From positions 1-31,030 of the IMG/VR virus record IMGVR_UViG_3300042691_019020: a stretch of DNA of 31,030 nt, one strand, 5' to 3'. Below the pieces are notes generated by a model. That model ran no database searches and was not told the DNA's origin. It saw nothing but the letters and a program-made list of their open reading frames with translations. The translations under genes were made by a program, and so were the position numbers. Position 1 is the stretch's first letter. Each line of letters opens with the position of its first letter. Below are positions 6,536-30,401 of this stretch, piece after piece. The DNA is from a virus.

Positions 6536-6771
6536 GCGTTCCCCCCAGCCTCGTTCATGCGCCGGATGGCGGCCAGCGCCGCGCCCAGCGTGTCGTGGTA
6601 TTCGACGGCATCCCCGCCGCCGCCCGTCAGTACCCAGCCGCCACCGTGCGACTGCACCGTGTAGCCCTCGCGCGCCTGCGGGTTGTGGGTCGCGGCTGCC
6701 GTCCGGTTGTCGGTAATGCGCGGGTACATGGCCTGCGATGCCGCCCGGCGCTGCGCGTAGTAGTCGCTCAC
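6532..6771 (-). CDS. Hypothetical protein (79 aa)
   Basis: The GTG at 6771 overlaps the previous stop as GTGA. A basic helical start (YYAQRRAASQAMYP) precedes a Gly-rich β-like centre (GGGWVLTGGGGDAVEY) and a final helix (TLGAALAAIRRMNEA). It could be a small β-α domain. No known family is recognised. It is coupled to both neighbours, so expression is surely shared. Confidence 0.6.
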   Translation of the reverse strand: MSDYYAQRRAASQAMYPRITDNRTAAATHNPQAREGYTVQSHGGGWVLTGGGGDAVEYHDTLGAALAAIRRMNEAGGNA

Positions 6772-6995
6772 GCCGCCACCCCCGCAACAGCGGCCTTCGC
6801 CTCACCGAACTTTGCGAAGGTGCCCACACGCTCCCACGCGGCAGGCATTTCCAGGCCGGTGCTGTAGTCGTATGCGCTGACACGCTCCACGGCGTACACA
6901 CCGGCCGCGATCTTTAGGATTCGCCAACCCTGCCCGGCGTGGTCGGCGCGGTGTTCCCCGGTGCCCCTGCCGTACCTGTACCAATGAATCCCCAT
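6768..6995 (-). CDS. Hypothetical protein, first gene of the second early operon (75 aa)
   Basis: The ATG at 6995 lies about 7 bases after AAGGGGG. Another in-frame ATG at 7028 sits exactly where transcription should begin from the promoter at 7035-7063 and would add 11 residues on a leaderless message. The protein has a basic, Gly-rich start (HWYRYGRGTGEH), a central β-like part (WRILKIAAGVYAVERV) and a helical end. No family is recognised. As the first gene of a long operon it may be strongly expressed. Confidence 0.65.
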   Translation of the reverse strand: MGIHWYRYGRGTGEHRADHAGQGWRILKIAAGVYAVERVSAYDYSTGLEMPAAWERVGTFAKFGEAKAAVAGVAA

Positions 6996-7027
6996 CACCC
7001 TGCCCCCTTCGTTCGGCGTTATTGCCA

Positions 7028-7063
7028 TGCCGTGAATGTACGCCCGCGCCCTGCTGGTGTCTA
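7028..7063 (-). promoter_or_regulatory. Promoter for second early operon (-35/-10) with ATG at the start point
   Basis: On the minus strand a -35 box TAGACA (7063-7058) and a -10 box TACATT (7040-7035) are separated by exactly 17 bases, close to the sigma-70/SigA consensus. The first ATG begins at 7028, six bases past the -10 box, so a transcript would start at or next to it. The -35 lies in a GGTGTC/GACACC inverted repeat that overlaps the shared GTCTAG-N7-GACA element, so a bound regulator would block polymerase. Confidence 0.65.
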
Positions 7064-7075
7064 GGGCTACGGACA
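7059..7075 (+). promoter_or_regulatory. GTCTAG-N7-GACA regulatory element, copy 1
   Basis: One of five copies seen by eye, all in intergenic control regions. Here it is part of a larger dyad, GGTGTC-N10-GACACC, covering the -35 box of the minus-strand promoter. It is probably the binding site of a phage or host regulator. Because the dyad is nearly symmetric, the strand is assigned only by the GTCTAG end. Confidence 0.55.
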
Positions 7076-7083
7076 CCACGGGC

Positions 7084-7833
7084 CTACGACTTGCCCGCAT
7101 TTTGCGGATTTTCTGTGCCGAACGCTGCCGTAATCGCGGCCTTCGCGCGGTCGAACGTCGCCGCGTCCGTGAGGGCTGCGCGGTCTGCGATGCCTTCGGC
7201 CTTTAGCGCGGCGGCTACGTCGGCCAGCGTCGCATCACCACCGGCCGCCAGGTGCAGCGCCTTCAGTTCGGCGGTGCCCGGCACGATCACCGGGTCAGCG
7301 GCGGGCAGGTCGGTGCTACTGCGCGGCTGCTTTGCGGCTTTGCGGCGCTGCGGCTTCGCGGCCTCGGTGTCGCTGCGGTCGGCCTTTGACCACAGGCCAC
7401 CAGCGACCCCGAACCTCATCGCCCCGTTTCTGAGGGCGTCCCCGATCAACTCTTTTACGGCGTCACGCTTGCCCGGCTCGCACGACCCATAGGCCGGGCG
7501 CTCCACGCCGCACACCTGAATCCAAATCCACATGCCCACCGGCCGCCCGTGTTCGTCGCGGTCCAGCACCGGCAGCCCGTTGTCGTCGGTGGCCATCGGC
7601 GTCCACGTCCAGCACGGGTCGGCCTCAATCAGCGCGCGGGTGGTGTCGGCGTGCCCCAGGTAGGACAGCGCCGGGCCACCGCCCCGGCCCGGCAGCGTGC
7701 CGATCAGTTCGGCGGGCGGCTGCCACCAGTCGCGGGCCAGCGCGGTCAGCGCCGCCACCTGATAATCCCAATCCGGCTGCGCGGGCGGCACGGGCGGCAT
7801 GGATGCCCCCGGCGTTGCGTTCTCGTCCTCCAC
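7084..7833 (-). CDS. Rad52-family-like single-strand annealing protein
   Basis: The GTG at 7833 follows GGAGG and overlaps the previous stop as TAGTG, giving 249 residues. Residues about 58-150 carry the pattern of phage Rad52-like annealing proteins: SYLGHADTTRALIEADP, then WTWTPM, WIWIQVCGVER, and DAVKELIGDALRNGAMRFGV. The C-terminal 90 residues are a Lys/Ala-rich linker and a helical tail. Such proteins pair complementary single strands during recombination-dependent replication and repair. The phage SSB (1518-1934) and resolvase (2469-3026) fit the same pathway. No partner 5'-3' exonuclease was recognised. Confidence 0.75.
   Translation of the reverse strand: MEDENATPGASMPPVPPAQPDWDYQVAALTALARDWWQPPAELIGTLPGRGGGPALSYLGHADTTRALIEADPCWTWTPMATDDNGLPVLDRDEHGRPVGMWIWIQVCGVERPAYGSCEPGKRDAVKELIGDALRNGAMRFGVAGGLWSKADRSDTEAAKPQRRKAAKQPRSSTDLPAADPVIVPGTAELKALHLAAGGDATLADVAAALKAEGIADRAALTDAATFDRAKAAITAAFGTENPQNAGKS
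7096..7106. promoter_or_regulatory. CGC-N5-GCG operator-like dyad, divergent copy
   Basis: CGCATTTTGCG (plus strand), 20 bases beyond the GTCTAG-N7-GACA element and inside the last codons of the annealing-protein gene. On the minus strand it reads CGCAAAATGCG followed by GGC, as at 9415 and 28544 (CGCTATTTGCG then GGC). It is weaker than the other copies and is included because of its position. Confidence 0.35.
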
Positions 7834-8186
7834 TACTTCCTCCCCATGTTGTCCAATGCGTCCAGCCCGGCGCGCGTGATGACGCACACCCGCTGGGCCT
7901 CCCCTGCGCGGCTAGGCCGCGTGTCCTCGGTGGCGCGGATGAACCCACCGGCCAGCAGTTCCCCGCACCGTTTCCAGTAGCAGCAGCCGGGGGCCTCGGC
8001 CAGGCCGGTGACCACCCCCGCGCCGTCGTTCGTCAGCCCGTAGTCCCCGGCGTCGGCATACGCCGCCAGCAGGCGGGCACGCTGCGACCCGGCACGGATG
8101 ACCACCGCGCGAGCGGCCTTGTGCGACGTGGCCGGGTCGGTGGTACGCACCGGCAGCGGCAGGTCGTCGAATGTCATGGCGATCAT
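7833..8186 (-). CDS. Winged-helix DNA-binding protein (117 aa)
   Basis: The ATG at 8186 overlaps the previous stop as ATGA. The start (TTDPATSHKAA) is a signature of a widespread phage winged-helix family. It is followed by RARLLAAYADAG, a recognition-helix region (WKRCGELLAGGFI) and a wing (AQRVCVITRAGLDAL). These proteins bind DNA and usually act as small early regulators. No repressor-type dimer or cleavage domain is visible. It is a candidate reader of the shared operator motifs near 9.4 and 7.1 kb, but that is untested. Confidence 0.75.
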   Translation of the reverse strand: MIAMTFDDLPLPVRTTDPATSHKAARAVVIRAGSQRARLLAAYADAGDYGLTNDGAGVVTGLAEAPGCCYWKRCGELLAGGFIRATEDTRPSRAGEAQRVCVITRAGLDALDNMGRK

Positions 8187-8398
8187 GCCTCACCCCTCTT
8201 GCCGATGATTTGCGCCACCCGCTGATGCGACAGGCCGACGTGGGCGCTAATCGCCCGCAGGGACATGCCCGTGTCACGCGCCGCCGTCATGGTGTCGCGC
8301 AGCAGCCCGGCCGACAGGCGCTCGCGCGCCACCGCGTCCCGGTGCGCCTCGGCTGCGGCGTGCAGCCATTCGGCGCGGTCGTCGTTCACAGTTGTCAC
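8183..8398 (-). CDS. Small helix-turn-helix protein (71 aa)
   Basis: The GTG at 8398 overlaps the previous stop as GTGA. The C-terminal 30 residues are a clear HTH of the sigma-region-4 or resolvase type (GMSLRAISAHVGLSHQRVAQ) followed by IIGKR. The N-terminal half is an acidic and basic helix. It is small enough to act as a simple dimeric regulator. With the winged-helix gene next to it, it is the best local candidate for recognising the CGC-N5-GCG or GTCTAG-N7-GACA sites. Confidence 0.75.
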   Translation of the reverse strand: MTTVNDDRAEWLHAAAEAHRDAVARERLSAGLLRDTMTAARDTGMSLRAISAHVGLSHQRVAQIIGKRGEA

Positions 8399-8598
8399 CC
8401 CTCCACCTCCCGCTGGGCCTTTGCCAGCGCGTCGAACTCCTGCACGGTGATGCCCATGCAGTTGGCCGCGTGCGTCACGGCGCGCATGGCGTCGTGGTAG
8501 TCGTCCACGCCCTGCATGGCCCCGCCGTCGTCCAGCCGGGTAAGGGCCACGCGCGCGTCCACCAGGAACGCGGCCACGGCCTCGCGGCTGCCGGTCAT
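8395..8598 (-). CDS. Small helical protein (67 aa)
   Basis: The ATG at 8598 overlaps the previous stop as ATGA. The sequence is entirely helical and mildly acidic (AVAAFLVDARVALTRL, then DDYHDAMRAVTHAANCM, then FDALAKAQREVEG). No signal, membrane segment or known motif is seen. It is coupled to the HTH gene downstream. Function unknown. Confidence 0.6.
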   Translation of the reverse strand: MTGSREAVAAFLVDARVALTRLDDGGAMQGVDDYHDAMRAVTHAANCMGITVQEFDALAKAQREVEG

Positions 8599-8789
8599 GC
8601 GCGCCCCCGCTTCACCGGCCGCGTGGTCACGGCCTCGCGCACGGGCGGCCACGGCTTCACGTCGGCCACCGGCACGCGGCGGGTGCTGTCACCGTGCCGC
8701 ACGCGCGCCCACTTGTACCCGCGCTCCACCAGGTGCCCGAAGTGTGCGCCGGTCTTGTCGCGGTAATACACCACGTCCCCGGTGTTCAT
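8595..8789 (-). CDS. Small basic β-barrel-like protein (64 aa)
   Basis: The ATG at 8789 overlaps the previous stop as ATGA. The pattern GDVVYYRDKTGAHFGHLVE then YKWARVRHGDSTRRVPVADV suggests a short five-strand SH3- or KOW-like barrel, followed by a basic tail ending KRGRA. Such folds often bind nucleic acid. This is pattern inference; no family is assigned. Confidence 0.6.
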   Translation of the reverse strand: MNTGDVVYYRDKTGAHFGHLVERGYKWARVRHGDSTRRVPVADVKPWPPVREAVTTRPVKRGRA

Positions 8790-9109
8790 GCCTGCGCCCC
8801 CGCGTTCACCAGCGCGCGCATCAGCCCGTGCGTGTCGTCGTCGTTCTTGTCCATGTCGGCGCACACCTCAGCGCTGCCACGCAGCACCTCGGCCAGAAGC
8901 GCCGCCGCTCCAGCCTCGCCGCGCTGTATGTCCCACGTTTCCCCAACTCGTCCTTGCGCGCCACGGTCCAAATCGGCCGCGTAGCGGTCCAAAGCGTGCG
9001 CGACTATCGCCACGGTGTCCTCGTCCAGCACGACCCGCACGCTGCCGGGGAAACGCACCAGGCGCACGCCCTCCATGCCGTCTGCCTTCGTGATGCTGTC
9101 CACGGTCAC
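8786..9109 (-). CDS. Hypothetical acidic protein (107 aa)
   Basis: The GTG at 9109 overlaps the previous stop as GTGA. A β-rich start (VRLVRFPGSVRVVLDEDTVAI) is followed by helical segments (AHALDRYAADL, AAALLAEVLRGSAEVC), an acidic DMDKNDDD stretch and a last helix. No catalytic signature is seen. It is the second gene of the first early operon. Confidence 0.6.
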   Translation of the reverse strand: MTVDSITKADGMEGVRLVRFPGSVRVVLDEDTVAIVAHALDRYAADLDRGAQGRVGETWDIQRGEAGAAALLAEVLRGSAEVCADMDKNDDDTHGLMRALVNAGAQA

Positions 9110-9324
9110 ACCCCCGCCTTCTCGTAGCGGATGGCATCCATGACCAGCAGCGCGTCCATGTGGTCGTCCCACGTCCCGCCGCTGGCCACCAGCACATCGT
9201 CCCCGTGGATGTCCAGCGTCACGTCCACGGTGCCGTCCTCGCGCTCGCGCAGGGTGTAGTCCCCGACGTATGCGAAGCGGCGGCCGGGCTCGTCGTCGTT
9301 GATGCGGATTTCGTCAGCGTTCAT
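9106..9324 (-). CDS. Hypothetical acidic protein, first gene of first early operon (72 aa)
   Basis: The ATG at 9324 was chosen because GGAGGG lies 5-10 bases upstream; the in-frame ATG at 9336 has none. The protein is strongly acidic (ADEIRINDDEPG, TVDVTLDIHGDDV) and ends with a helix (DHMDALLVMDAIRYEK). As the first gene behind the control region at 9356-9372 it may be an early host-directed protein, possibly a DNA mimic given its charge. That is speculation. Confidence 0.65.
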   Translation of the reverse strand: MNADEIRINDDEPGRRFAYVGDYTLREREDGTVDVTLDIHGDDVLVASGGTWDDHMDALLVMDAIRYEKAGV

Positions 9325-9355
9325 GCTGCCCTCCATGTCGTCGGCGGTATTGCCG

Positions 9356-9372
9356 TGTCATGGACCCTAGAC
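9356..9372 (-). promoter_or_regulatory. GTCTAG-N7-GACA element, minus-strand copy (early promoter region)
   Basis: On the minus strand GTCTAG (9372-9367), seven bases, then GACA (9359-9356). It contains a TAGGGT that fits the actinobacterial TAnnnT -10 form and would start a transcript near 9357, about 30 bases before the first early gene. No good -35 box is visible. It is divergent from the plus-strand copy at 9496-9512, with two operator-like dyads between them. Confidence 0.5.
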
Positions 9373-9414
9373 GACGGGCTGGGGACCGCGCTAGGGCTGC
9401 GGCGGCGGCATTGT

Positions 9415-9425
9415 CGCTATTTGCG
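9415..9425. promoter_or_regulatory. CGC-N5-GCG operator-like dyad
   Basis: CGCTATTTGCG, within a 17-base string TGTCGCTATTTGCGGGC that recurs exactly at 28541-28557. It lies in the 208-base divergent control region between the first early operon and the plus-strand island. A T-rich run follows it. Confidence 0.55.
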
Positions 9426-9443
9426 GGCTTTTTTTGTTTTCCC

Positions 9444-9454
9444 CGCTATTTGCG
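9444..9454. promoter_or_regulatory. CGC-N5-GCG operator-like dyad, second copy
   Basis: CGCTATTTGCG again, 29 bases from the first copy and 41 bases before the plus-strand GTCTAG element. Two identical sites nearly three helical turns apart suit cooperative binding of a dimeric regulator. Confidence 0.55.
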
Positions 9455-9495
9455 ACTTTCTGGCTGCGGCAGGGGTAGCGGTGCCGTGTGCGGGC

Positions 9496-9512
9496 GTCTA
9501 GTGTTCTCGACA
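9496..9512 (+). promoter_or_regulatory. GTCTAG-N7-GACA element upstream of plus-strand island 1
   Basis: GTCTAG, seven bases, GACA. The 20 bases GCGTCTAGTGTTCTCGACAT are identical to those at 26811-26830. It contains TAGTGT (9499-9504), a TAnnnT-type -10 box. The first gene follows at 9545 behind a CCGAAGGGAAC ribosome site. Confidence 0.55.
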
Positions 9513-9544
9513 TAAGGCAAGACCAACCGAAGGGAACGCCCCAA

Positions 9545-9802
9545 ATGAACAGCACCACCCGCACCGTGACCGCCGCCAATGAGCAGGCTTTCGTGGACCG
9601 CATGCTGGCCCGGCCTATTGTAGAGGGGACCGGGTACGCCGCGACCTGCACCCGTCGCGGTGACATCACCGCCCGCCACACCGCTAAGGGTCTGACCTAC
9701 GCGGCCAAGTACCGCGTGAGCGCGCCCGGCTACGCGCCCGCCACCTTCAGCGCCCGCACGACTACCACCGGCCGAATCGTGTGCCGCAAGTTGGCCCGTT
9801 AG
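9545..9802 (+). CDS. Plus-strand island 1, small basic protein (85 aa)
   Basis: The ATG at 9545 follows the CCGAAGGGAAC block (9527-9537) by 7 bases. The protein is Thr/Arg/Ala-rich and β-like (GYAATCTRRGDITARH, then YAAKYRVSAPGYAPATF) with a basic end (GRIVCRKLAR). No membrane span, signal or catalytic motif is seen. It is transcribed against the surrounding genes from its own control region. Function unknown; position and signals suggest an accessory gene rather than a structural one. Confidence 0.7.
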   Translation: MNSTTRTVTAANEQAFVDRMLARPIVEGTGYAATCTRRGDITARHTAKGLTYAAKYRVSAPGYAPATFSARTTTTGRIVCRKLAR

Positions 9803-9829
9803 TCCACGACGAACCGAAGGGAACACGAC

Positions 9830-10054
9830 ATGAACCGCGACATTTTCACCGCCCTGTCCCGCGACACCGAAAGGCGCGGCACGCTGCACTACGAGGTAAC
9901 GCTGTGGGACGGTTCGATTGACCACCGCAGCATGGAAGGCTGGTTCATGCTGTCGAACGACTACGAGCGGGTGAGCGGTCGGAAGGTGCGCGGCCGCAAC
10001 CGCTGGAGGATTGCTCGCGCGGCTAACGTGATCGGATTCACGCCGCACGCCTAA
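9830..10054 (+). CDS. Plus-strand island 1, second small protein (74 aa)
   Basis: The ATG at 9830 lies 5 bases after another CCGAAGGGAAC block (9814-9824) and 27 bases after the previous stop. The product is basic and mixed α/β (HYEVTLWDGSIDHRSMEGWF, then YERVSGRKVRGRNRWRIARA). No family is recognised. A GGCCCGCC hairpin follows 27 bases after the stop, ending the island. Confidence 0.7.
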   Translation: MNRDIFTALSRDTERRGTLHYEVTLWDGSIDHRSMEGWFMLSNDYERVSGRKVRGRNRWRIARAANVIGFTPHA

Positions 10055-10081
10055 CCCACCACCGCACCACGCGCACCACGC

Positions 10082-10104
10082 GGCCCGCCCTCACACGGCG
10101 GGCC
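10082..10104. terminator. Convergent hairpin terminator, island 1
   Basis: GGCCCGCC, loop CTCACAC, GGCGGGCC: an eight-pair perfect stem between the convergent ends of the island and the minus-strand late operon (stop at 10113). No long T tract follows, as is common in GC-rich genomes. The stem sequence is the same as at 27536 and 28870. Confidence 0.7.
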
Positions 10105-10112
10105 GTCGTGCG

Positions 10113-11657
10113 TTATGGCCCCAGCACCTCCACGGGGGACTCGGTGCGACCGGCCACCAGCCGGATGCGGTGCAGGGCAGACATCCCGTACTCGGGGTGG
10201 ATAACGAACACGTTTTGCGACGGCAGGGACGCGCCCCCGCGCCCTATGGATAGGTTCGTGGACCCTACCCACGCGCTGTTCCAATGCCGTTCGGAATCCG
10301 CCCCCACGGTGATGCTGGTCGCCCGGTGGTAGTGGCCGCAGATGTGTAGGTCGTGCTGCACGGCCGTGGACATCCGCACGGCGTAGTCGTTCCGCAGGCC
10401 GGTGACCACGGGCACGCCCACCAGTCCCCCGCCCCGGTCCTGATCGCCGTGGGTCATCAGCACCAGCGCCCCGCAGGTCTGGAAATAGACGGCCAGCCGG
10501 GGTTCCTCATGCATGGTCAGGTCTAGCGCGTCGGCGTGGTGCCGCAGCGCCTCGCACGTCAGCGCGTGGGCCAGGTAGTCGTATGACAGGGCCACGGGCG
10601 TAGCCCCGGCACCGCGCCCGCCCTGCACCCCGTGGTTACCGTTCACGGCCAGCAGCACCGTGCGCCCGCCGTGCTGCTGCGCCATGCGCGCCAGTTCCGC
10701 GACGGCGCGCGCCCACAGGCGGCCCCACCTCACCACCTGTTCCCCGGCGTCTATGGCCAGGTGCCACGACTGCCCGCGGAATACGTCGTGGCCCTCCACA
10801 TGGTCACCGCCCGACGCTATCCATAGCGTGCCCAGCGGCCGGGTGCTGCACGTCGCGGCAAGGATGCCGCGCACGGCCTCCAGGTAGCGCGGCAGGCGCT
10901 CGCCGTCCACGATGTCGGGGGAGAACCCGCCGCCCGGCACTTCCTCACCGTCCACCACCATGCCGTATTGCACATCAGACACATGGCACACCACATCCAC
11001 CGGCTGCCCTTCGCCGTAGTCATCGCGCCGGGCCACGGGCGGCAGGGTCGGCACGGCGTCCCGTGCGGCGTCCCGCAACGCGCCCATCATGTCGGCCACG
11101 GCGGTTTCCTGCCGCTCCAGTTCCGCCACGCGGCGGGTCAGCATGGCCACGCGGGGATTACGCGCGGCCTGCGGGTCGGGGCGCACACCACGCCGGGACG
11201 CCTCGCGGCGCACGGTCGCGGTGGCAAGCCCCAGGGCTGCGGCTAGGTCGCCCGGCCCCATTGCCTCCAGCAGCGCCCGCAGGTGTTCGTCGGACATGCG
11301 GGCCATGACGCCGCCGCCGTCGGTGCGCTTAGGCGCGGGCGGGGCTTCAGCGCCCAGCCGTACCATCCAGCGCCGGACGGTCTTTTCGTCGCGGCCCAAC
11401 TGCCCGGCCAGCGCGGTGACGCTACCGGCCGCGTCCACCGCCGCGCGCATTTCGTCGGCGCTGCCATAGGGACAATCCACCGGCCGCCCCATCTTGCCCG
11501 TGCGCGGGGGAACGCCGTGTTCTTTGCACCAGCGGCGCACGGTGTGGGGGCTGGCCCCGACCTCCAGGCCCAGCGATTCCACCGACCCGGCAGCGACCAA
11601 CGCGGCGCGCAGGTCGTCGGGTGTATCGAACGGGCACGGCTTACGCGGTGCGGCCAT
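10113..11657 (-). CDS. Metallophosphoesterase with three N-terminal HTH repeats (514 aa)
   Basis: The ATG at 11657 follows GGGGGAGGG. Residues 1-160 hold three related HTH units, each with a helix, a GS/GD turn and a recognition helix (ASPHTVRRWCKEHGV, RDEKTVRRWMVRLG, ATATVRREASRRGV). A coiled linker (170-200) leads to a calcineurin-like phosphoesterase: SDVQ with Asp228, GDHVEG with Asp285, NGNH (Asn341, His342), THGDQ with His403, CGHYH (His442, His444). The usual DxH first motif is DxQ. The remaining metal ligands are present, so it is probably an active nuclease or phosphatase directed to DNA by the HTH units. It lies at the end of the late operon, after lysis. Confidence 0.85.
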   Translation of the reverse strand: MAAPRKPCPFDTPDDLRAALVAAGSVESLGLEVGASPHTVRRWCKEHGVPPRTGKMGRPVDCPYGSADEMRAAVDAAGSVTALAGQLGRDEKTVRRWMVRLGAEAPPAPKRTDGGGVMARMSDEHLRALLEAMGPGDLAAALGLATATVRREASRRGVRPDPQAARNPRVAMLTRRVAELERQETAVADMMGALRDAARDAVPTLPPVARRDDYGEGQPVDVVCHVSDVQYGMVVDGEEVPGGGFSPDIVDGERLPRYLEAVRGILAATCSTRPLGTLWIASGGDHVEGHDVFRGQSWHLAIDAGEQVVRWGRLWARAVAELARMAQQHGGRTVLLAVNGNHGVQGGRGAGATPVALSYDYLAHALTCEALRHHADALDLTMHEEPRLAVYFQTCGALVLMTHGDQDRGGGLVGVPVVTGLRNDYAVRMSTAVQHDLHICGHYHRATSITVGADSERHWNSAWVGSTNLSIGRGGASLPSQNVFVIHPEYGMSALHRIRLVAGRTESPVEVLGP

Positions 11658-25731: not shown

Positions 25732-25949
25732 CCGTCCACCACCTGGATGAACGCGACGCCCTCCACGGGAATCAGGGCGTAGCCCTCCAGGTCGTGCGAG
25801 CGCTCGGCCGATTCGATCAGCGACGCCGCCTCCAGCCGGTAGTGCTTGCCGCCCACGCGCCCCATGAATACGCCTTCCAGGGACGGGGCATCGCCGCGCA
25901 TGTGGATGCGGGCAAGGCGTTGCCGTCGCCACGGCCACCAGCGCCACAT
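25728..25949 (-). CDS. Small protein upstream of portal (73 aa)
   Basis: The ATG at 25949 overlaps the previous stop as ATGA. A very basic Trp/Arg-rich start (MWRWWPWRRQRLARIHMRGD) precedes a compact β/α part (MGRVGGKHYRLEAASLIESA, then YALIPVEGVAFIQVVDG). Small proteins of this kind often precede portal genes in actinophages, but no function is known. The basic aromatic start could bind DNA or membranes. Confidence 0.7.
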   Translation of the reverse strand: MWRWWPWRRQRLARIHMRGDAPSLEGVFMGRVGGKHYRLEAASLIESAERSHDLEGYALIPVEGVAFIQVVDG

Positions 25950-26728
25950 CACCGCGCCGCCTTCACGATGCTACGTCCGTCCTCGTCCGTGGTGGTCAGC
26001 CGTTCGATTCCTAGCGCCTCGCGCCGCTTGTAATACTCCCGCGCCGCCTCCCGTCGGTACAGGTCGCGCCACGCTGAACGATGCTCCACCGTGACATCGT
26101 GGAACATTACACCATCCTGCGGCGCTACATGGGGCGGCCCCCATAGGTAGGTATACGTCCCGTCCTCCTGCACCCCGGCATAGACGTAGTGCAGGCCCAC
26201 GACCTGCATGCGGTCCAGGCAGCGGAACAGCATCCGCATGGGCGCGGTGGTGGATGGCGGCAGGTTCATGGCGCGGGCCACGTCCGGCGCGTCGGTGAGG
26301 TAATCCGACCGCGACCACAGCCCGACCTCCACCACGTCGCCCGGCACGTCGGCCAGGCGCTCGCGCAAGTCGGCCGGGTACTCGGCCAGCACGCAATCCG
26401 CATCGAATACCCACAGCCAATCGTGGTGCGCGCGCGCGTGGGCGTTGGCCAGCCGGAACATGAAATCGCGCTTTTCCACCTCGTCGCCCAGGAACGGCGC
26501 GGCCGGGCGGTGCAGGGTCACCGGCAGCCCCAGCGCGTTGGCCGTGGCCATCACGGTTTCCGCCTGCACGCGCTCCGATGATGCGCGGGCGTCGGGGTAG
26601 TGCGCGTACGCACCATCCACCGCGATAAGCCCATCCAGCGCGGGCGCGAATGATGCGACCGCCTCCGCTAGCCATGACGGGCTTTCGTCGTACCACGACA
26701 GCAGCCCCCACACGTTCGGCCTATCCAT
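25949..26728 (-). CDS. Glycosyltransferase-like protein, GT-A fold with DAD motif (259 aa)
   Basis: The ATG at 26728 has GGGGAGGA upstream. The plan is a GT-A glycosyltransferase: a start strand (VWGLLSWYDES), LDGLIAVDGAYAHYPD, a helix region, then WLWVFDADCVLAEYP with a DAD at residues 109-111 for metal/nucleotide-sugar binding. Later parts (MRMLFRCLDRMQVVGLHY, HDVTVEHRSAWRD) fit the acceptor half. Length is close to small GT2-like enzymes. It lies between the portal region and a plus-strand island. It may glycosylate virion proteins, phage DNA or host surface; the substrate is unknown. Confidence 0.75.
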   Translation of the reverse strand: MDRPNVWGLLSWYDESPSWLAEAVASFAPALDGLIAVDGAYAHYPDARASSERVQAETVMATANALGLPVTLHRPAAPFLGDEVEKRDFMFRLANAHARAHHDWLWVFDADCVLAEYPADLRERLADVPGDVVEVGLWSRSDYLTDAPDVARAMNLPPSTTAPMRMLFRCLDRMQVVGLHYVYAGVQEDGTYTYLWGPPHVAPQDGVMFHDVTVEHRSAWRDLYRREAAREYYKRREALGIERLTTTDEDGRSIVKAAR

Positions 26729-26750
26729 GTAGTCCTCCCCTAGTTTTTCC

Positions 26751-26761
26751 CGCTAATAGCG
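26751..26761. promoter_or_regulatory. Operator-like dyad CGCTAATAGCG
   Basis: A perfect palindrome (CGCTA-A-TAGCG), variant of the CGC-N5-GCG sites at 9415, 9444 and 28544. It lies 62 bases before the GTCTAG element of island 2 and just upstream of the divergent glycosyltransferase, over a possible minus-strand TACGCT -10 box. Confidence 0.5.
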
Positions 26762-26793
26762 TAAAACGCTGCCACCGGAAGCAGCCGTTCCCC

Positions 26794-26829
26794 TTCACAT
26801 CGCTGCCGCAGCGTCTAGTGTTCTCGACA
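26794..26829 (+). promoter_or_regulatory. Island 2 promoter with GTCTAG-N7-GACA element
   Basis: TTCACA (26794-26799), 16 bases, TAGTGT (26816-26821). The -10 box is inside the GTCTAG-N7-GACA element (26813-26829). The 20 bases around it match those at 9494-9513 exactly. The ATG at 26829 follows the -10 box by seven bases, so a transcript would begin at it. The pattern parallels 28610-28622 and 7040-7028. Confidence 0.6.
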
Positions 26830-26855
26830 TGAACACCGACCCGAAGGGAACCGAC

Positions 26856-27113
26856 ATGACCCGCGACATTCACGAGACTGCTGGCAACGCTGCTATGGCA
26901 GCCGGTCACTACCGCGAGGCTGCCGCGCAGTACGGCAGGGCTGCCGACGCCTACTGCATGTCCTACGACCGCACCAGCGGCGACAGGGACACGGCGCGCG
27001 CCATCCTGGTGCGTGTAAACGCCTGCTACTCCAAGCGCGCTGCGGCCGTCCGTTGCGCGTCCGACCGCGAGGCCCGCGCATACCGCACGCGCCTGCTGCG
27101 GGGCGACATCTAA
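26856..27113 (+). CDS. Plus-strand island 2, helical TPR-like small protein (85 aa)
   Basis: The ATG at 26856 follows CCGAAGGGAAC (26841-26851) by 4 bases. An in-frame ATG at 26829, at the predicted transcript start, would add nine residues. The protein is helical; AAMAAGHYREAAAQYGRAAD fits one tetratricopeptide-type helix pair, followed by DTARAILVRVNACYSKRAAAV and a basic end. TPR-like pairs usually bind peptides. No other domain is visible. Function unknown. Confidence 0.7.
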   Translation: MTRDIHETAGNAAMAAGHYREAAAQYGRAADAYCMSYDRTSGDRDTARAILVRVNACYSKRAAAVRCASDREARAYRTRLLRGDI

Positions 27114-27128
27114 CCCCCCACCACCTAG

Positions 27129-27151
27129 CCCCCCGGCATCCGGCCGGGGGG
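27129..27151 (+). terminator. Hairpin between the two island 2 genes
   Basis: CCCCCCGGC, loop ATCCG, GCCGGGGGG: nine perfect GC pairs ending seven bases before the CCGAAGGGAAC block of the next gene. No T run follows. It may weaken downstream transcription or act on mRNA stability or ribosome access. Confidence 0.5.
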
Positions 27152-27173
27152 CATGACCCGAAGGGAACGCACG

Positions 27174-27509
27174 ATGAACACCACCACCGCCAACACCGCC
27201 CCGCTGAACATCAGCGACGAGGCCACCGACCTGTACCCGTTCCGCACCGTCATCACGCTGAACAGCACCACCAGCCACATGGACGACGTGCTGGGCGAAG
27301 TCACATGGAACAACACCGCGCGCGTGAACGTCAGCACGCTGGGGAACCTTCAGTTGTCGGTGAACGGCTACGGCTCGGCCAACTACAAGCCCATGCCCGA
27401 CATGAGCGGCGCGAACTCGCACGCGGTCGCTGGTATGACCCCGGCCGAAGCCCGCGCGCTGGCCATCACGCTGCTGAAGGCTGCAGACGCCGCCGACGCT
27501 ATGGACTAG
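27174..27509 (+). CDS. Plus-strand island 2, second protein (111 aa)
   Basis: The ATG at 27174 follows CCGAAGGGAAC (27158-27168). The product is Asn/Thr/Ala-rich, β-like and acidic (YPFRTVITLNSTTSHMDDVL, then VTWNNTARVNVSTLGNLQL), ending with a helix (TPAEARALAITLLKAADAADA). It has no signal or membrane segment. Function unknown. A strong hairpin terminator follows 26 bases after the stop. Confidence 0.7.
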   Translation: MNTTTANTAPLNISDEATDLYPFRTVITLNSTTSHMDDVLGEVTWNNTARVNVSTLGNLQLSVNGYGSANYKPMPDMSGANSHAVAGMTPAEARALAITLLKAADAADAMD

Positions 27510-27528
27510 CATGCGCCACATGCTGCAC

Positions 27529-27577
27529 CGCGAACGGCCCGCCACACGGCGGGCCTTCGTGTTTGTGGGGCTAGTCA
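27529..27577. repeat. Direct repeat copy 1: terminator and flank
   Basis: About 49 bases that recur at 28863-28911 with three differences, all in the hairpin loop. Each copy runs from CGCGAA through the GGCCCGCC hairpin and TTCGTGTTTGTGGGG to the CTA that is the minus-strand stop codon of the next gene. The two copies end the two plus-strand islands and may be sites for recombination between them. Confidence 0.8.
27536..27555. terminator. Convergent hairpin terminator, island 2
   Basis: GGCCCGCC, loop ACAC, GGCGGGCC then TTCGTGTTTGT. Eight perfect pairs; outer CGAA/TTCG bases can extend the stem with a bulge. It lies between the island and the minus-strand glycosyltransferase-like gene and can serve both directions. 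Confidence 0.75.
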
Positions 27578-28239
27578 CGGATGACCTGCGCCGGGCGCTC
27601 GCCCACTAACAGGCGCTTGCGGGGGTCGCGGTCCAGTTCCAGCCAGCGTTCTTTTAGGTGTTCGCATCCGCCGTCGCGCGCGGCGACCATCGGAACGCCC
27701 GCATCCCGTAGCCGGTGCGACAGGTGGAAGTCGGACGCCCACGACGATGACGGCCCGCCGAACGCGCCGAACGGGAACCGCCGCCACAGGTCGCGCGGCA
27801 TGCACGTCAGCGCGAAGCCAACGAACCCGGTTTCGATGACCGGCGACGGGTGCGCCACCACGTCGCTGAACTTGCGAAAGCGATACGCGCCCGGCGTAGG
27901 CTCATCGCCCACCAGCGGACCGTCGGTGATGTTTACCAGCGGGTGCGTGCTGTCCAGGCGGCACCACCCGGTAACGACCGGCCGCCCCTCGCGGGCCAGT
28001 CCCAGCACGGCGTCCAGCGCGGGCTGCCTTACCACCACGTCATCCGCGACCATTATCAGGTGCGTGAACGGCAGGTCAGGGTCATCTACCAGCGACCGCA
28101 CCACGTCCATCAGTTGCCATTCGGTGTACCCCTGCATCCATGCCCGGCGCACATCCAGCGCGCGGAACGCGGCCACGGCGTCGGGGATGTCGCGCGGGTG
28201 CATGATGCACAGCAGCGGGTCAAACTCGCCCGCGCTCAC
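27571..28239 (-). CDS. Glycosyltransferase-like protein, ADD motif (222 aa)
   Basis: The GTG at 28239 overlaps the previous stop as GTGA; an ATG 12 codons on is possible. The layout is a small GT-A fold: FDPLLCIMHPRDIPDAVAAF, THLIMVADDVVVRQPALDAV with ADD at 65-67, ETGFVGFALTCMPRDLWRRF, and WASDFHLSHRLRDAGVPM followed by CEHL. This is typical of predicted sugar transferases in phages and bacteria. It lacks close likeness to the glycosyltransferase at 25949-26728 except the fold. Acceptor unknown; placement between portal and terminase genes suggests virion or DNA modification. Confidence 0.75.
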   Translation of the reverse strand: MSAGEFDPLLCIMHPRDIPDAVAAFRALDVRRAWMQGYTEWQLMDVVRSLVDDPDLPFTHLIMVADDVVVRQPALDAVLGLAREGRPVVTGWCRLDSTHPLVNITDGPLVGDEPTPGAYRFRKFSDVVAHPSPVIETGFVGFALTCMPRDLWRRFPFGAFGGPSSSWASDFHLSHRLRDAGVPMVAARDGGCEHLKERWLELDRDPRKRLLVGERPAQVIRD

Positions 28240-28559
28240 GGTGCCCGCCCCGCCTCGGTGATCGCTGCCCATAGCGCGCCGCGCCTTTCCTCGGTTTCGT
28301 CGAATAGGTACTCCCGCGCCAGGTCCATCACGTTTTCCAGCGCCCGCAGGCGGGCCAGGGTCACGGTGCCGGGCGGTCCCGCCGCGTCGTCCCCGTGCGC
28401 CTCCAGCCGGGCGCGCAGTTCCAGCGTGACGGCCTCGGCCTCGGACCACTTCGCCACCATGTCGCGGTACATGGCCAGCGGCACGGTACTGGCATGAGGC
28501 ACCGTCAGCGGCGGCGTGTACGGCGGCACCCACGCCAAAATGTCGCTATTTGCGGGCAT
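28236..28559 (-). CDS. Helical protein upstream of glycosyltransferase (107 aa)
   Basis: The ATG at 28559 follows GGGAGGA. A Pro-rich start (WVPPYTPPLTVP) precedes two charged helices (MYRDMVAKWSEAEAVTLELR, LARLRALENVMDLAREYLF). It overlaps the next gene as GTGA. The operator-like dyad at 28544-28554 lies inside its first codons, so regulator binding could control it from within. Function unknown. Confidence 0.65.
   Translation of the reverse strand: MPANSDILAWVPPYTPPLTVPHASTVPLAMYRDMVAKWSEAEAVTLELRARLEAHGDDAAGPPGTVTLARLRALENVMDLAREYLFDETEERRGALWAAITEAGRAP
28544..28554. promoter_or_regulatory. CGC-N5-GCG operator-like dyad near island 3
   Basis: CGCTATTTGCG inside the 17-base string TGTCGCTATTTGCGGGC that matches 9412-9428 exactly. 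It lies 22 bases before the GTCTAG element of island 3 and within the start of the divergent minus-strand gene. Confidence 0.55.
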
Positions 28560-28575
28560 TAGTGTCCTCCCGTTC

Positions 28576-28615
28576 GTCTAGATGTATTGACACCATGCGG
28601 GAGGGAACGGATAAT
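28576..28615 (+). promoter_or_regulatory. Island 3 promoter (TTGACA-N17-GATAAT) with GTCTAG element
   Basis: TTGACA at 28587-28592 and GATAAT at 28610-28615, 17 bases apart, form the best promoter in the window. The -35 box is the end of the GTCTAG-N7-GACA element (28576-28592), so a bound regulator would cover it. An ATG starts six bases past the -10 box at 28622. Confidence 0.75.
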
Positions 28616-28669
28616 CCACCCATGAACACGGCACCCGCCACCCACACCCACACTTCCCCGGAGGGAATC

Positions 28670-28843
28670 ATGGACACCATCACCACCGACATCACCACCA
28701 CCGAGTCGCAGGCCCGCGTGCTGGCCGGTCTGAACTGGGCCACGGCTTCGCAGGACACGGCCTCCGGCGTCATCCTGCTCACCACGGCCGACGGCCGCGA
28801 GTACCTGGTGGAGCGCAACGGGGACTGGGACGAGGTTGCCTAG
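28670..28843 (+). CDS. Plus-strand island 3, small acidic protein (57 aa)
   Basis: The ATG at 28670 follows CCGGAGGGAATC. An in-frame ATG at 28622 lies at the predicted transcript start and would add 16 residues (NTAPATHTHTSPEG). The protein is Thr/Asp-rich with two helices and short strands (SQARVLAGLNWATASQ, VILLTTADGREYLVERNGD). No known domain. It is the only gene of the third island and is bounded by its own promoter and terminator, as a moron would be. Confidence 0.7.
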   Translation: MDTITTDITTTESQARVLAGLNWATASQDTASGVILLTTADGREYLVERNGDWDEVA

Positions 28844-28862
28844 CCCCCCGCGCCACGCGCCC

Positions 28863-28911
28863 CGCGAACGGCCCGCCGACCGGCGGGCCTTCGTGTTTGT
28901 GGGGCTAGTCA
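28863..28911. repeat. Direct repeat copy 2: terminator and flank
   Basis: Matches 27529-27577 except for three loop bases. It contains the GGCCCGCC hairpin and ends at the stop codon of the large terminase gene (CTA at 28905-28907). The shared bases extend well past the stem, so this is a true duplicated segment rather than chance likeness of hairpins. Confidence 0.8.
28870..28889. terminator. Convergent hairpin terminator, island 3
   Basis: GGCCCGCC, loop GACC, GGCGGGCC then TTCGTGTTTGT. Same stem as the other two island terminators. It separates island 3 from the large terminase gene and can act on both transcripts. Confidence 0.75.
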
Positions 28912-30401
28912 TCGTCCAGCCCATCCCACGACAGGACGTACTCGGCGGGCTGCTCGTCGCGGTCGGCGCGCCACAGGGCCATACACATCGCCACGCAGGC
29001 GTCAATACGCTGCAACCGCTGGCGGCCGATGCGCCAGCCGCGTTCGGTCATGGTCGCTTGCGTTGCCTCCACATGCGCCGACAGCACAGGGTCCACCGGA
29101 TGCACCACGCGGCCATCCTGCACGGCGGTGTAGAACGTCGCATAAGCCTCGGCCATGCGCCGCGATGCCTGGTCCACGGGCGCGGTGATGAACCCGGCCG
29201 CCGACAGCGCCGACGCCGACCGCTCAAAGAATCGCGGGTCATACACCAACTCGCGCACGCTGTAGCGGTCGGCCAGGGCTTCGATGTAGTCCTCCACCAC
29301 GCCCAGGTCCACGCGGCCGCCCGGCAGGATGATGTGGGCCACGGCGTCATCCCGCGCAGCCCACACGCGGCAGTCCAGCGCGATGCGGCCATCCGGCAGG
29401 CGGCAACCGATGGCCACGGCGGTGCTGTCATGCACCAGGCCAACGTCCACCGCCACGACCACCTCGGACCCGTCGGGGATGGTGTAGCCCTCGGTGCCCA
29501 GCGCCTCCCACGCGCCAGCGGGCAGCCACGCATTACGGGTGCTGGTCCACTGGTTCGCATGCAGGCGGCGGAAGGCGTATTCGTCCACCGTGGGCGATTC
29601 GCGCTGCGCCTCCAGCACGGCCGACGTTATCCACGACGCCGGGTTAGCGGCCAGCACGTTTTCCGGCGTCGGTTCGTCGTCGTCGGCAAGCCCGTACCAC
29701 CACATCAGGAACCCGGCCGCAGGGTCGCGGGCTATGGTCAGCATCCCGTCCCGGCGCACGTCCGGCAGGCGCATGGCATCCGCATACAGGCGGCCCAGGA
29801 TGGTGTGGCGGTTGTACCCCGCCGTGGTAATGGCCAGGTTCAGCGGTTGTTCGCGCGCGCCGCTGGCGGTGTTTAGCGCCGCGTACAGTTCCTCCTGCCG
29901 GGGCGTTTCCAGCGCGTGCAACTCGTCCAGGATGACGGCGCTGGGGCTAGTCCCGTGCTGCATGCGGCCATCAGCGGCCACGCGCTTTATGGTGCTGCCG
30001 GTCGGCCCGTAGATCACGAAGCGCTGGGCGTCGAAGTGTTGGCCCAGGTCCTCGGATGCCTCCACGAACGCGCGTGCCTGGTCGAACACGATGCCCGCCT
30101 GGTCGCGCGAGCCTGCGGCGATGATGACCTCCGCCCCGGCTTCACCGTCAGCCCCGGCCATGTAGAGCGCGAGGGTGGCGGCTAGCGTGGACTTGCCGTT
30201 TTTGCGCGGCAGCCCCAGCAGCACGTTGCGATAGACGCGGCGGCCGTCGTCGTCCAGCCTAAACGCCTCGTCTATAAACGCCTGCTGCCACGGCTCAAAT
30301 GCAACCGGCTGCCCGGCCCAGCGGCCTTTGGTGTGGCGGCAGTATTCGCGGGCGAACGCGGCCAGGTGGCCGCCCTGTGTCGCCGGGCTACTCGTCGGCA
30401 T
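28905..30401 (-). CDS. terL: Terminase large subunit (498 aa)
   Basis: The ATG at 30401 overlaps the zinc-peptide gene by 14 bases. The ATPase domain has a Walker A GLPRKNGKST (63-72), Walker B with acidic pair VILDE (156-160) and a coupling motif TTAG (192-195). The RuvC-like nuclease domain has AVDVG with Asp319, VYDPRFF with Asp388 and QRIDACV with Asp467, the three metal-binding acids. It cuts concatemers and pumps DNA into the prohead with energy from ATP, using the portal and small subunit. Length matches HK97-type terminases. All catalytic residues are intact. Confidence 0.96.
   Translation of the reverse strand: MPTSSPATQGGHLAAFAREYCRHTKGRWAGQPVAFEPWQQAFIDEAFRLDDDGRRVYRNVLLGLPRKNGKSTLAATLALYMAGADGEAGAEVIIAAGSRDQAGIVFDQARAFVEASEDLGQHFDAQRFVIYGPTGSTIKRVAADGRMQHGTSPSAVILDELHALETPRQEELYAALNTASGAREQPLNLAITTAGYNRHTILGRLYADAMRLPDVRRDGMLTIARDPAAGFLMWWYGLADDDEPTPENVLAANPASWITSAVLEAQRESPTVDEYAFRRLHANQWTSTRNAWLPAGAWEALGTEGYTIPDGSEVVVAVDVGLVHDSTAVAIGCRLPDGRIALDCRVWAARDDAVAHIILPGGRVDLGVVEDYIEALADRYSVRELVYDPRFFERSASALSAAGFITAPVDQASRRMAEAYATFYTAVQDGRVVHPVDPVLSAHVEATQATMTERGWRIGRQRLQRIDACVAMCMALWRADRDEQPAEYVLSWDGLDDD

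Follow-up and report, generated by a model that had tools for sequence, protein, structure and literature searches.

The window analysed, a linear virus record (31,030 bases, 68% G+C), carries terminase, portal, capsid, and tail genes together with an early region encoding a single-strand annealing protein, a RuvC-like resolvase, an SSB, and a methylase. Nearly all of its genes lie on the minus strand, and small plus-strand genes are found at 9545-10054, 26829-27509, and 28622-28843. A phosphoesterase/exonuclease-like protein whose N-terminus has apparent HTH repeats is encoded at 10113-11657, and a glycosyltransferase gene at 25949-26728, between the portal and terminase modules, is kept in relatives down to approximately 48%. 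A phage nucleotide search returned no close isolate; the nearest terminases in the phage search shared less than 60% identity, phiC31- and TG1-like Streptomyces phages reached approximately 33%, and a genome scan for a host prophage yielded nothing beyond a 29% terminase in Glutamicibacter.

Five copies of the pattern GTCTAG-N7-GACA had been noted by eye in an earlier note on this DNA, and a scan of both strands of the window returned exactly those five and nothing further, on the plus strand at 7059-7075, 9496-9512, 26813-26829, and 28576-28592, and on the minus strand at 9356-9372 (Table 1). The confinement to intergenic DNA that the note had described also holds: all five copies lie between genes, whereas wholly non-coding 17-mers account for 5.1% of the 17-mers in the window under a gene set drawn by hand, which places the probability by chance at approximately 3e-7, and a scan for copies inside genes, named beforehand as the observation that would tell against the element, found 0 of 5. 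The claimed excess over composition stands against the shuffled window (0.01 expected, and none of 100 shuffles gave five), but it loses weight among all patterns of a 6-mer, a gap, and a 4-mer in the window, in which five copies rank only sixth, below codon-driven repeats. When up to two mismatches were allowed, 22 matches were obtained versus 12.4 expected, and, thus, only exact or near-exact sites are distinguishable. The real support for the element is its position and its conservation in relatives rather than its copy number.

Table 1. Coordinates of the putative operators, promoters, upstream elements, cargo genes, and candidate binders in the window.
Feature	Position	Strand	Remarks
Cargo gene of the 7059 promoter, 86 aa	6768..7028	-	different cargo here in G003, G016, and L073
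Predicted promoter	7035..7063	-	TAGACA-N17-TACATT, N6, ATG at 7028 (predicted leaderless start); consensus scan and geometry
Putative class A operator	7059..7075	-	TGTCCGTAGCCCTAGAC(A) read on the minus strand; inverted relative to other class A sites
Upstream element CGCAAAATGCG	7096..7106	-	CGCAAATAGCG in G016; centre 61 bp before -10
Second candidate binder, 117-aa putative DNA-binding protein (phrog_18663)	7833..8186	-	95% in G003, 84% in L073
Candidate binder, 71-aa HTH protein	8183..8398	-	encoded in the operon that follows the 9356 promoter; a long helix and an HTH are predicted
Cargo gene of the 9356 promoter	9106..9336	-	first gene of the leftward early operon
Putative class B operator GTCTAGGGTCCATGACA	9356..9372	-	over inferred -10 TAGGGT (9369-9364) and predicted +1 (9356)
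Upstream element CGCAAATAGCG	9415..9425	-	centre 51 bp before -10
Upstream element CGCTATTTGCG	9444..9454	+	centre 50 bp before -10
Putative class B operator GTCTAGTGTTCTCGACA	9496..9512	+	over inferred -10 TAGTGT (9499-9504) and predicted +1 (9512)
Cargo gene of the 9496 promoter, 85 aa	9545..9802	+
Second small gene behind the 9496 promoter, 74 aa	9830..10054	+
Upstream element CGCTAATAGCG	26751..26761	+	centre 60 bp before -10
Putative class B operator	26813..26829	+	17-mer identical to 9496, other flanks; final A is the A of the ATG, predicted leaderless start
Cargo gene MNTDPKGTDMTRD... of the 26813 promoter	26829..27113	+	second in-frame start at 26856 behind CCGAAGGGAAC
Second gene of the 26813 cassette	27174..27509	+
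Cassette end, intrinsic terminator in 53-nt repeat	27525..27577	+	stem 27536-27555
Upstream element CGCTATTTGCG	28544..28554	+	centre 61 bp before -10; within the first codons of divergent gene 28236-28559
Putative class A operator GTCTAGATGTATTGACA	28576..28592	+	overlaps -35; both-strand scan
Predicted promoter	28587..28615	+	TTGACA-N17-GATAAT (11/12), N6, ATG at 28622; consensus scan
Cargo gene of the 28576 promoter	28622..28843	+	other cargo at the locus in G002, G003, G005, and G014
Cassette end, second copy of 53-nt terminator repeat	28859..28911	+	stem 28870-28889

Regarding conservation, the relatives compared were IMG/VR contigs gathered by terminase, several of them with 90-100% identical terminases. 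Scans of whole records found the pattern in 12 of 22 and a reversed control pattern in none; four of the 12 (G019-G022) match by the exact 17-mer alone with unrelated flanks and were set aside as chance. In L034, L036, L038, and L039, the exact 17-mer has unrelated flanks, and approximately that number is expected by chance in a collection this large. The relatives carry the element at orthologous promoter loci, where N7 drifts (e.g., ATGTATT, ACCTATT, and ACCGCTG) and GTCTAG is constant. Across 15 distinct sites, the counts of which are not independent of one another because the relatives share ancestry, neither GTCTAG nor the far AC varies, the latter is preceded by G or A, and two dyad pairs are conserved besides GTC/GAC, namely, A5/T12 in 13 and G6/C11 in nine. 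The invariant ends and biased dyad positions point to a shared core, and the element appears to be best read as the imperfect dyad GTC(T)AG-N4-(C)TNGAC. Six plus four fixed bases had been proposed; GTCTAG and GAC belong to the core and the last A falls outside it: it is the closing A of the -35 in one class of sites, coincides with the predicted start base in the other class, and is replaced by G in the inverted site of G004. Some copies have a weak right half-site (GTCATGGA at 9356 and GTTCAG in G006), and binding may thus be asymmetric. An Rfam search gave no match, and we know of no LexA box that fits GTC-N10-GAC.

The earlier note had reported an overlap with promoter boxes in three copies; the overlap is real, and the number was too low because all five overlap a plausible -35 or -10, in two arrangements. 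In class A (7059 and 28576), the core stops one base short of the end of the -35, and the order is TNGACA, N17-18, NATAAT or TACATT, N6, and ATG. An independent consensus promoter scan recovered a single sigma-70-like promoter in 6600-10200, namely, 7063-7035, and ranked 28587-28615 first in 26600-29000. In class B (9356, 9496, and 26813), the site covers a -10-like hexamer TAGNGT (TAGGGT or TAGTGT) and the predicted start base, its final A, which in a class B site of G006, as at 26813, is the A of the ATG. These -10 hexamers are poor and their -35 boxes are poorer; we infer the class B -10, and the fixed spacing to the upstream element described below supports this assignment. With the ATG six bases past the -10, class A starts may also be leaderless. 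A shared leader, ATGAACACCGACCCGAAGGGAACCGAC (MNTDPKGTD), opens many cassettes (26829-26855 in the window and, e.g., L064:12957-12983) and is followed by an in-frame ATG or GTG; the leader and the second start may possibly constitute a double start, leaderless and then with a ribosome site.

In class A, the orientation of the element is not tied to that of the promoter. It is inverted at an unchanged -35 register at 7059 in the window and in G003 and G004 at the 28576 locus, where the core still stops one base short of the end of the -35, and the flip thus occurs even between orthologous loci of two phages. The same register despite inversion suits a dyad operator and not a promoter element that is read one way.

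An upstream element, CGC-W5-GCG, accompanies each site, with five copies in the window, including the variant CGCAAAATGCG at 7096, and five in G003, one per operator. Its distance to the operator takes several values (20-22, 41-42, and 51-52), whereas its centre is 60-63 bp upstream of the inferred -10 in class A and class B alike or, at the divergent pair 9356/9496, one helical turn less (50-51 bp). Under a uniform null, the phasing has p of approximately 0.002, a value obtained from five window distances, two of them from one divergent pair, with -10 boxes chosen with the sites in view; five distances are few for a claim of phasing. Viral contigs were also scanned out of sample for the upstream element followed by GTCTAG at any gap of 20-50. 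These loose scans returned mostly chance matches and only those with the full core were used, all of which had gaps of 20-22, 41-42, or 51-52. The pattern scan also identified L073, a diverged relative with DNA identity of 69-80% over most aligned stretches, and its three sites have spacings of 52, 21, and 41, the same classes as in the window. In the distant relatives G007-G009, which are without the operator, the upstream element lies approximately 59 bp before TATAAC by hand count, with one mismatch in G007. These three relatives carry another repeated promoter element, TGTATA[AG]-YCACTYCA (L062:3538-3553, L063:5370-5385, and L060:3954-3969), one copy of which occupies the cassette position that separates terminase from glycosyltransferase.

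Assays of CRP have covered class I positions such as -61.5 and -72.5 (PMC6301791), and the centres of CGC-W5-GCG, approximately -62 and -72 when placed from the inferred -10 boxes, are similarly helically phased, which suggests that the element binds an activator or recruits polymerase. Because some copies form a hairpin followed by T (7095-7107), a terminator was considered; it was rejected as the main role because the copies at 28545 and 7096 are inside coding sequence and because the distance to the -10 is constant.

Each promoter precedes a different small gene without a reliable family match, and comparisons of the cargo proteins with Pfam, PHROGs, NCBIfam, and PADLOC gave nothing reliable. 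Two cargo families occur behind different promoter types: a 152-aa protein of G003 behind a class A promoter with an inverted site is 77% identical to a 153-aa protein of G006 behind class B, and the product of 9106-9336 is 65% identical to a product of G016 behind a 7059-type promoter. Taken together with the different genes found at one locus in different phages (Table 1), this suggests that the control module stays while the cargo moves. The 53-nt repeats at 27525-27577 and 28859-28911, each closing a plus-strand cassette, are 92% identical and contain a strong intrinsic terminator; cassette terminators in the relatives have the same stem and different loops.

Two proteins are candidates for binding the element. 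The HTH protein encoded at 8183-8398 is 99% identical in G003 and 49% identical in L073, and a comparison with PDB folds gave no match at E<=0.001; the other is the product of 7833-8186. The canonical repressor domain (PF01381) was not found in the window and an integrase was not found in the window or in G003, which leaves lysogeny uncertain. A tyrosine integrase is present in G009, a 33-kb relative with a 64% terminase, at L063:8824-9315 (G009 25824-26315, minus strand), and, thus, relatives appear to be at least partly temperate, while the phage of the window may not be.

We consider it probable that the element serves a phage-wide regulon as its operator and is read by one phage repressor, and the most likely role of the shared site is to allow one phage protein to switch all of the interchangeable small genes together. 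What the DNA shows directly is the sites and how they are registered with the promoter hexamers, their inversion, the constant distance to the second element, and the exchange of cargo; from these we infer promoter activity, repression, a dimer, the role of an activator, and timing. Coverage of the -35 or of the -10 and +1 is the geometry of an operator, which favours repression. In the proposed mechanism, a phage-encoded dimer, probably an HTH protein from a regulated operon, would bind GTC(T)AG-N4-(C)TNGAC and block RNA polymerase, either over the -35 (7059 and 28576) or over the -10 and start point (9356, 9496, and 26813). A second protein, perhaps the host's, may bind CGC-W5-GCG upstream, centred at approximately -62 or -72 on the same helix face, and help to recruit polymerase. 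The operator and CGC-W5-GCG would form a standard promoter module, often with a leaderless start, behind which phages exchange small accessory genes, also on the strand opposite the late operon. Its likely use would be a short burst of accessory and early gene expression, after which the repressor would shut these genes off or keep them silent.

An overlap with the -35 or with the -10 and start point at every site, and the near-identity of the class B copies, would also be expected if the element belonged to the promoter itself and were recognised by an alternative sigma factor or by one that the phage modifies. We regard this as unlikely because the element has two placements relative to the -10 (approximately 34 bp upstream in class A and over it in class B), occurs in both orientations at one locus, and accompanies ordinary sigma-70 boxes in class A. 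A phage activator serving an early-to-late or delayed-early switch, instead of a repressor, would suit a regulon spanning several modules and class B promoters that are weak by themselves; however, known activators do not fit the coverage of the -10 and +1 in class B, class A promoters are near consensus and should need none, and CGC-W5-GCG is better placed for activation, which makes this explanation distinctly improbable.

The earlier note had likened the sites to the dispersed repressor sites of actinophages, both operators and stoperators. The promoter overlap, dyad, and conservation uphold the former part of this comparison, and the latter is not supported. Asymmetric sites at which a monomeric repressor stops elongation, as in L5-like phages, would accord with dispersed sites in an actinophage-like genome and with one strong and one weak half-site, but there are just five sites, all at promoters, the orientation flips at one promoter position, and the AC of the far half is invariant in 15 sites; the likelihood that they are stoperators, already mostly refuted, is very slight. 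Equally slight is the chance that the sites have no regulatory role and act as tags of homology at which recombination imports cassettes: cargo is exchanged behind the sites and cassettes are closed by the 53-nt terminator repeats, but a 17-bp site with seven variable bases makes a poor tag, and the exact register with the -35 and -10 would be left without explanation.

As a tentative extension of repressor control, the module may provide fixed slots for exchangeable early genes, many for counter-defence or host takeover, under one repressor, with the operator defining a specificity group and the upstream element a shared constant. That the operator sets this group is suggested by related lineages that keep the slots and the upstream element and swap the operator (TGTATA[AG]-YCACTYCA in G007-G009). 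If the interpretation is correct, a 17-bp and an 11-bp site at fixed spacing would make it possible to search a group of uncultured phages, with proteins of no recognisable family, for small accessory genes, and the same route led to anti-defence genes in archaeal viruses (PMC11065993). The same promoter with a flipped operator would be a natural experiment separating the function of the operator from that of the promoter, and the loci would offer a case of cargo changing while the control module stays.

Among known systems, stoperators of cluster A phages (L5 and TipsytheTRex) are similarly dispersed, phage-specific repressor sites; they are asymmetric 13-mers numbering more than 20 per genome, many off promoters, with an orientation tied to transcription (PMC9283540). 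The likeness to them drawn in the earlier note thus fails on number (five), place (all at promoters), and orientation (which flips), and scans of the main ORFs with PHROGs profiles found no L5-type repressor. The closest systems are the operators of BPs and the ESAS promoters of cluster K. The gp33 repressor of BPs, a cluster G mycobacteriophage, is phage-encoded and, according to the portion of the report available, has a few dispersed operators, at five loci, on several phage promoters (PMC4557955). These operators resemble the present sites in serving several promoters and in having one well-conserved and one variable half-site; however, the BPs half-site CGACATATGTCG is a palindrome by itself with a variable spacer, whereas the core in the window is GTCTAG-N7-GAC, and the same portion describes no CGC-W5-GCG partner, which is present at all five window sites, and links the repressor to integration, whereas no integrase was found in the window (PMC4557955). 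No gp33-like protein was recognised in the window by searches that did not include a gp33-specific model. The ESAS elements of cluster K are, in the available parts of the reports, conserved intergenic promoter modules with SigA-like -35 and -10 boxes, a spacer of 17-18, and an imperfect inverted repeat (PMC3203893, PMC11373665). Class A sites alone share the intergenic boxes, spacer, and imperfect repeat, and both elements occur at several genes across relatives; in contrast, ESAS arms are 15-17 bp, are coupled to the start-associated sequence GGGATAGGAGCCC, and are unrelated in sequence to the window element, and those parts describe no exchange of cargo (PMC3203893, PMC11373665). GGGATAGGAGCCC and 17-bp inverted-repeat arms are absent from all five contexts, where the start region carries CCGAAGGGAAC.

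Under Aca8-type control in archaeal viruses, one regulatory sequence precedes many small unrelated genes of unknown function, and a small HTH-type protein is thought to shut these early genes down (PMC11065993). The arrangement of one regulatory sequence ahead of many small unrelated genes is shared, and a small HTH gene (8183-8398), here a candidate binder only, lies inside the putative regulon of the window; the archaeal promoters are of the TATA/BRE type and some of their cargo is proven anti-defence (PMC11065993), whereas no cargo in the window is so proven. In comparison with these systems, the sequence of the element, the phased second element, the orientation flip, and the exchange of cargo together are what is new.
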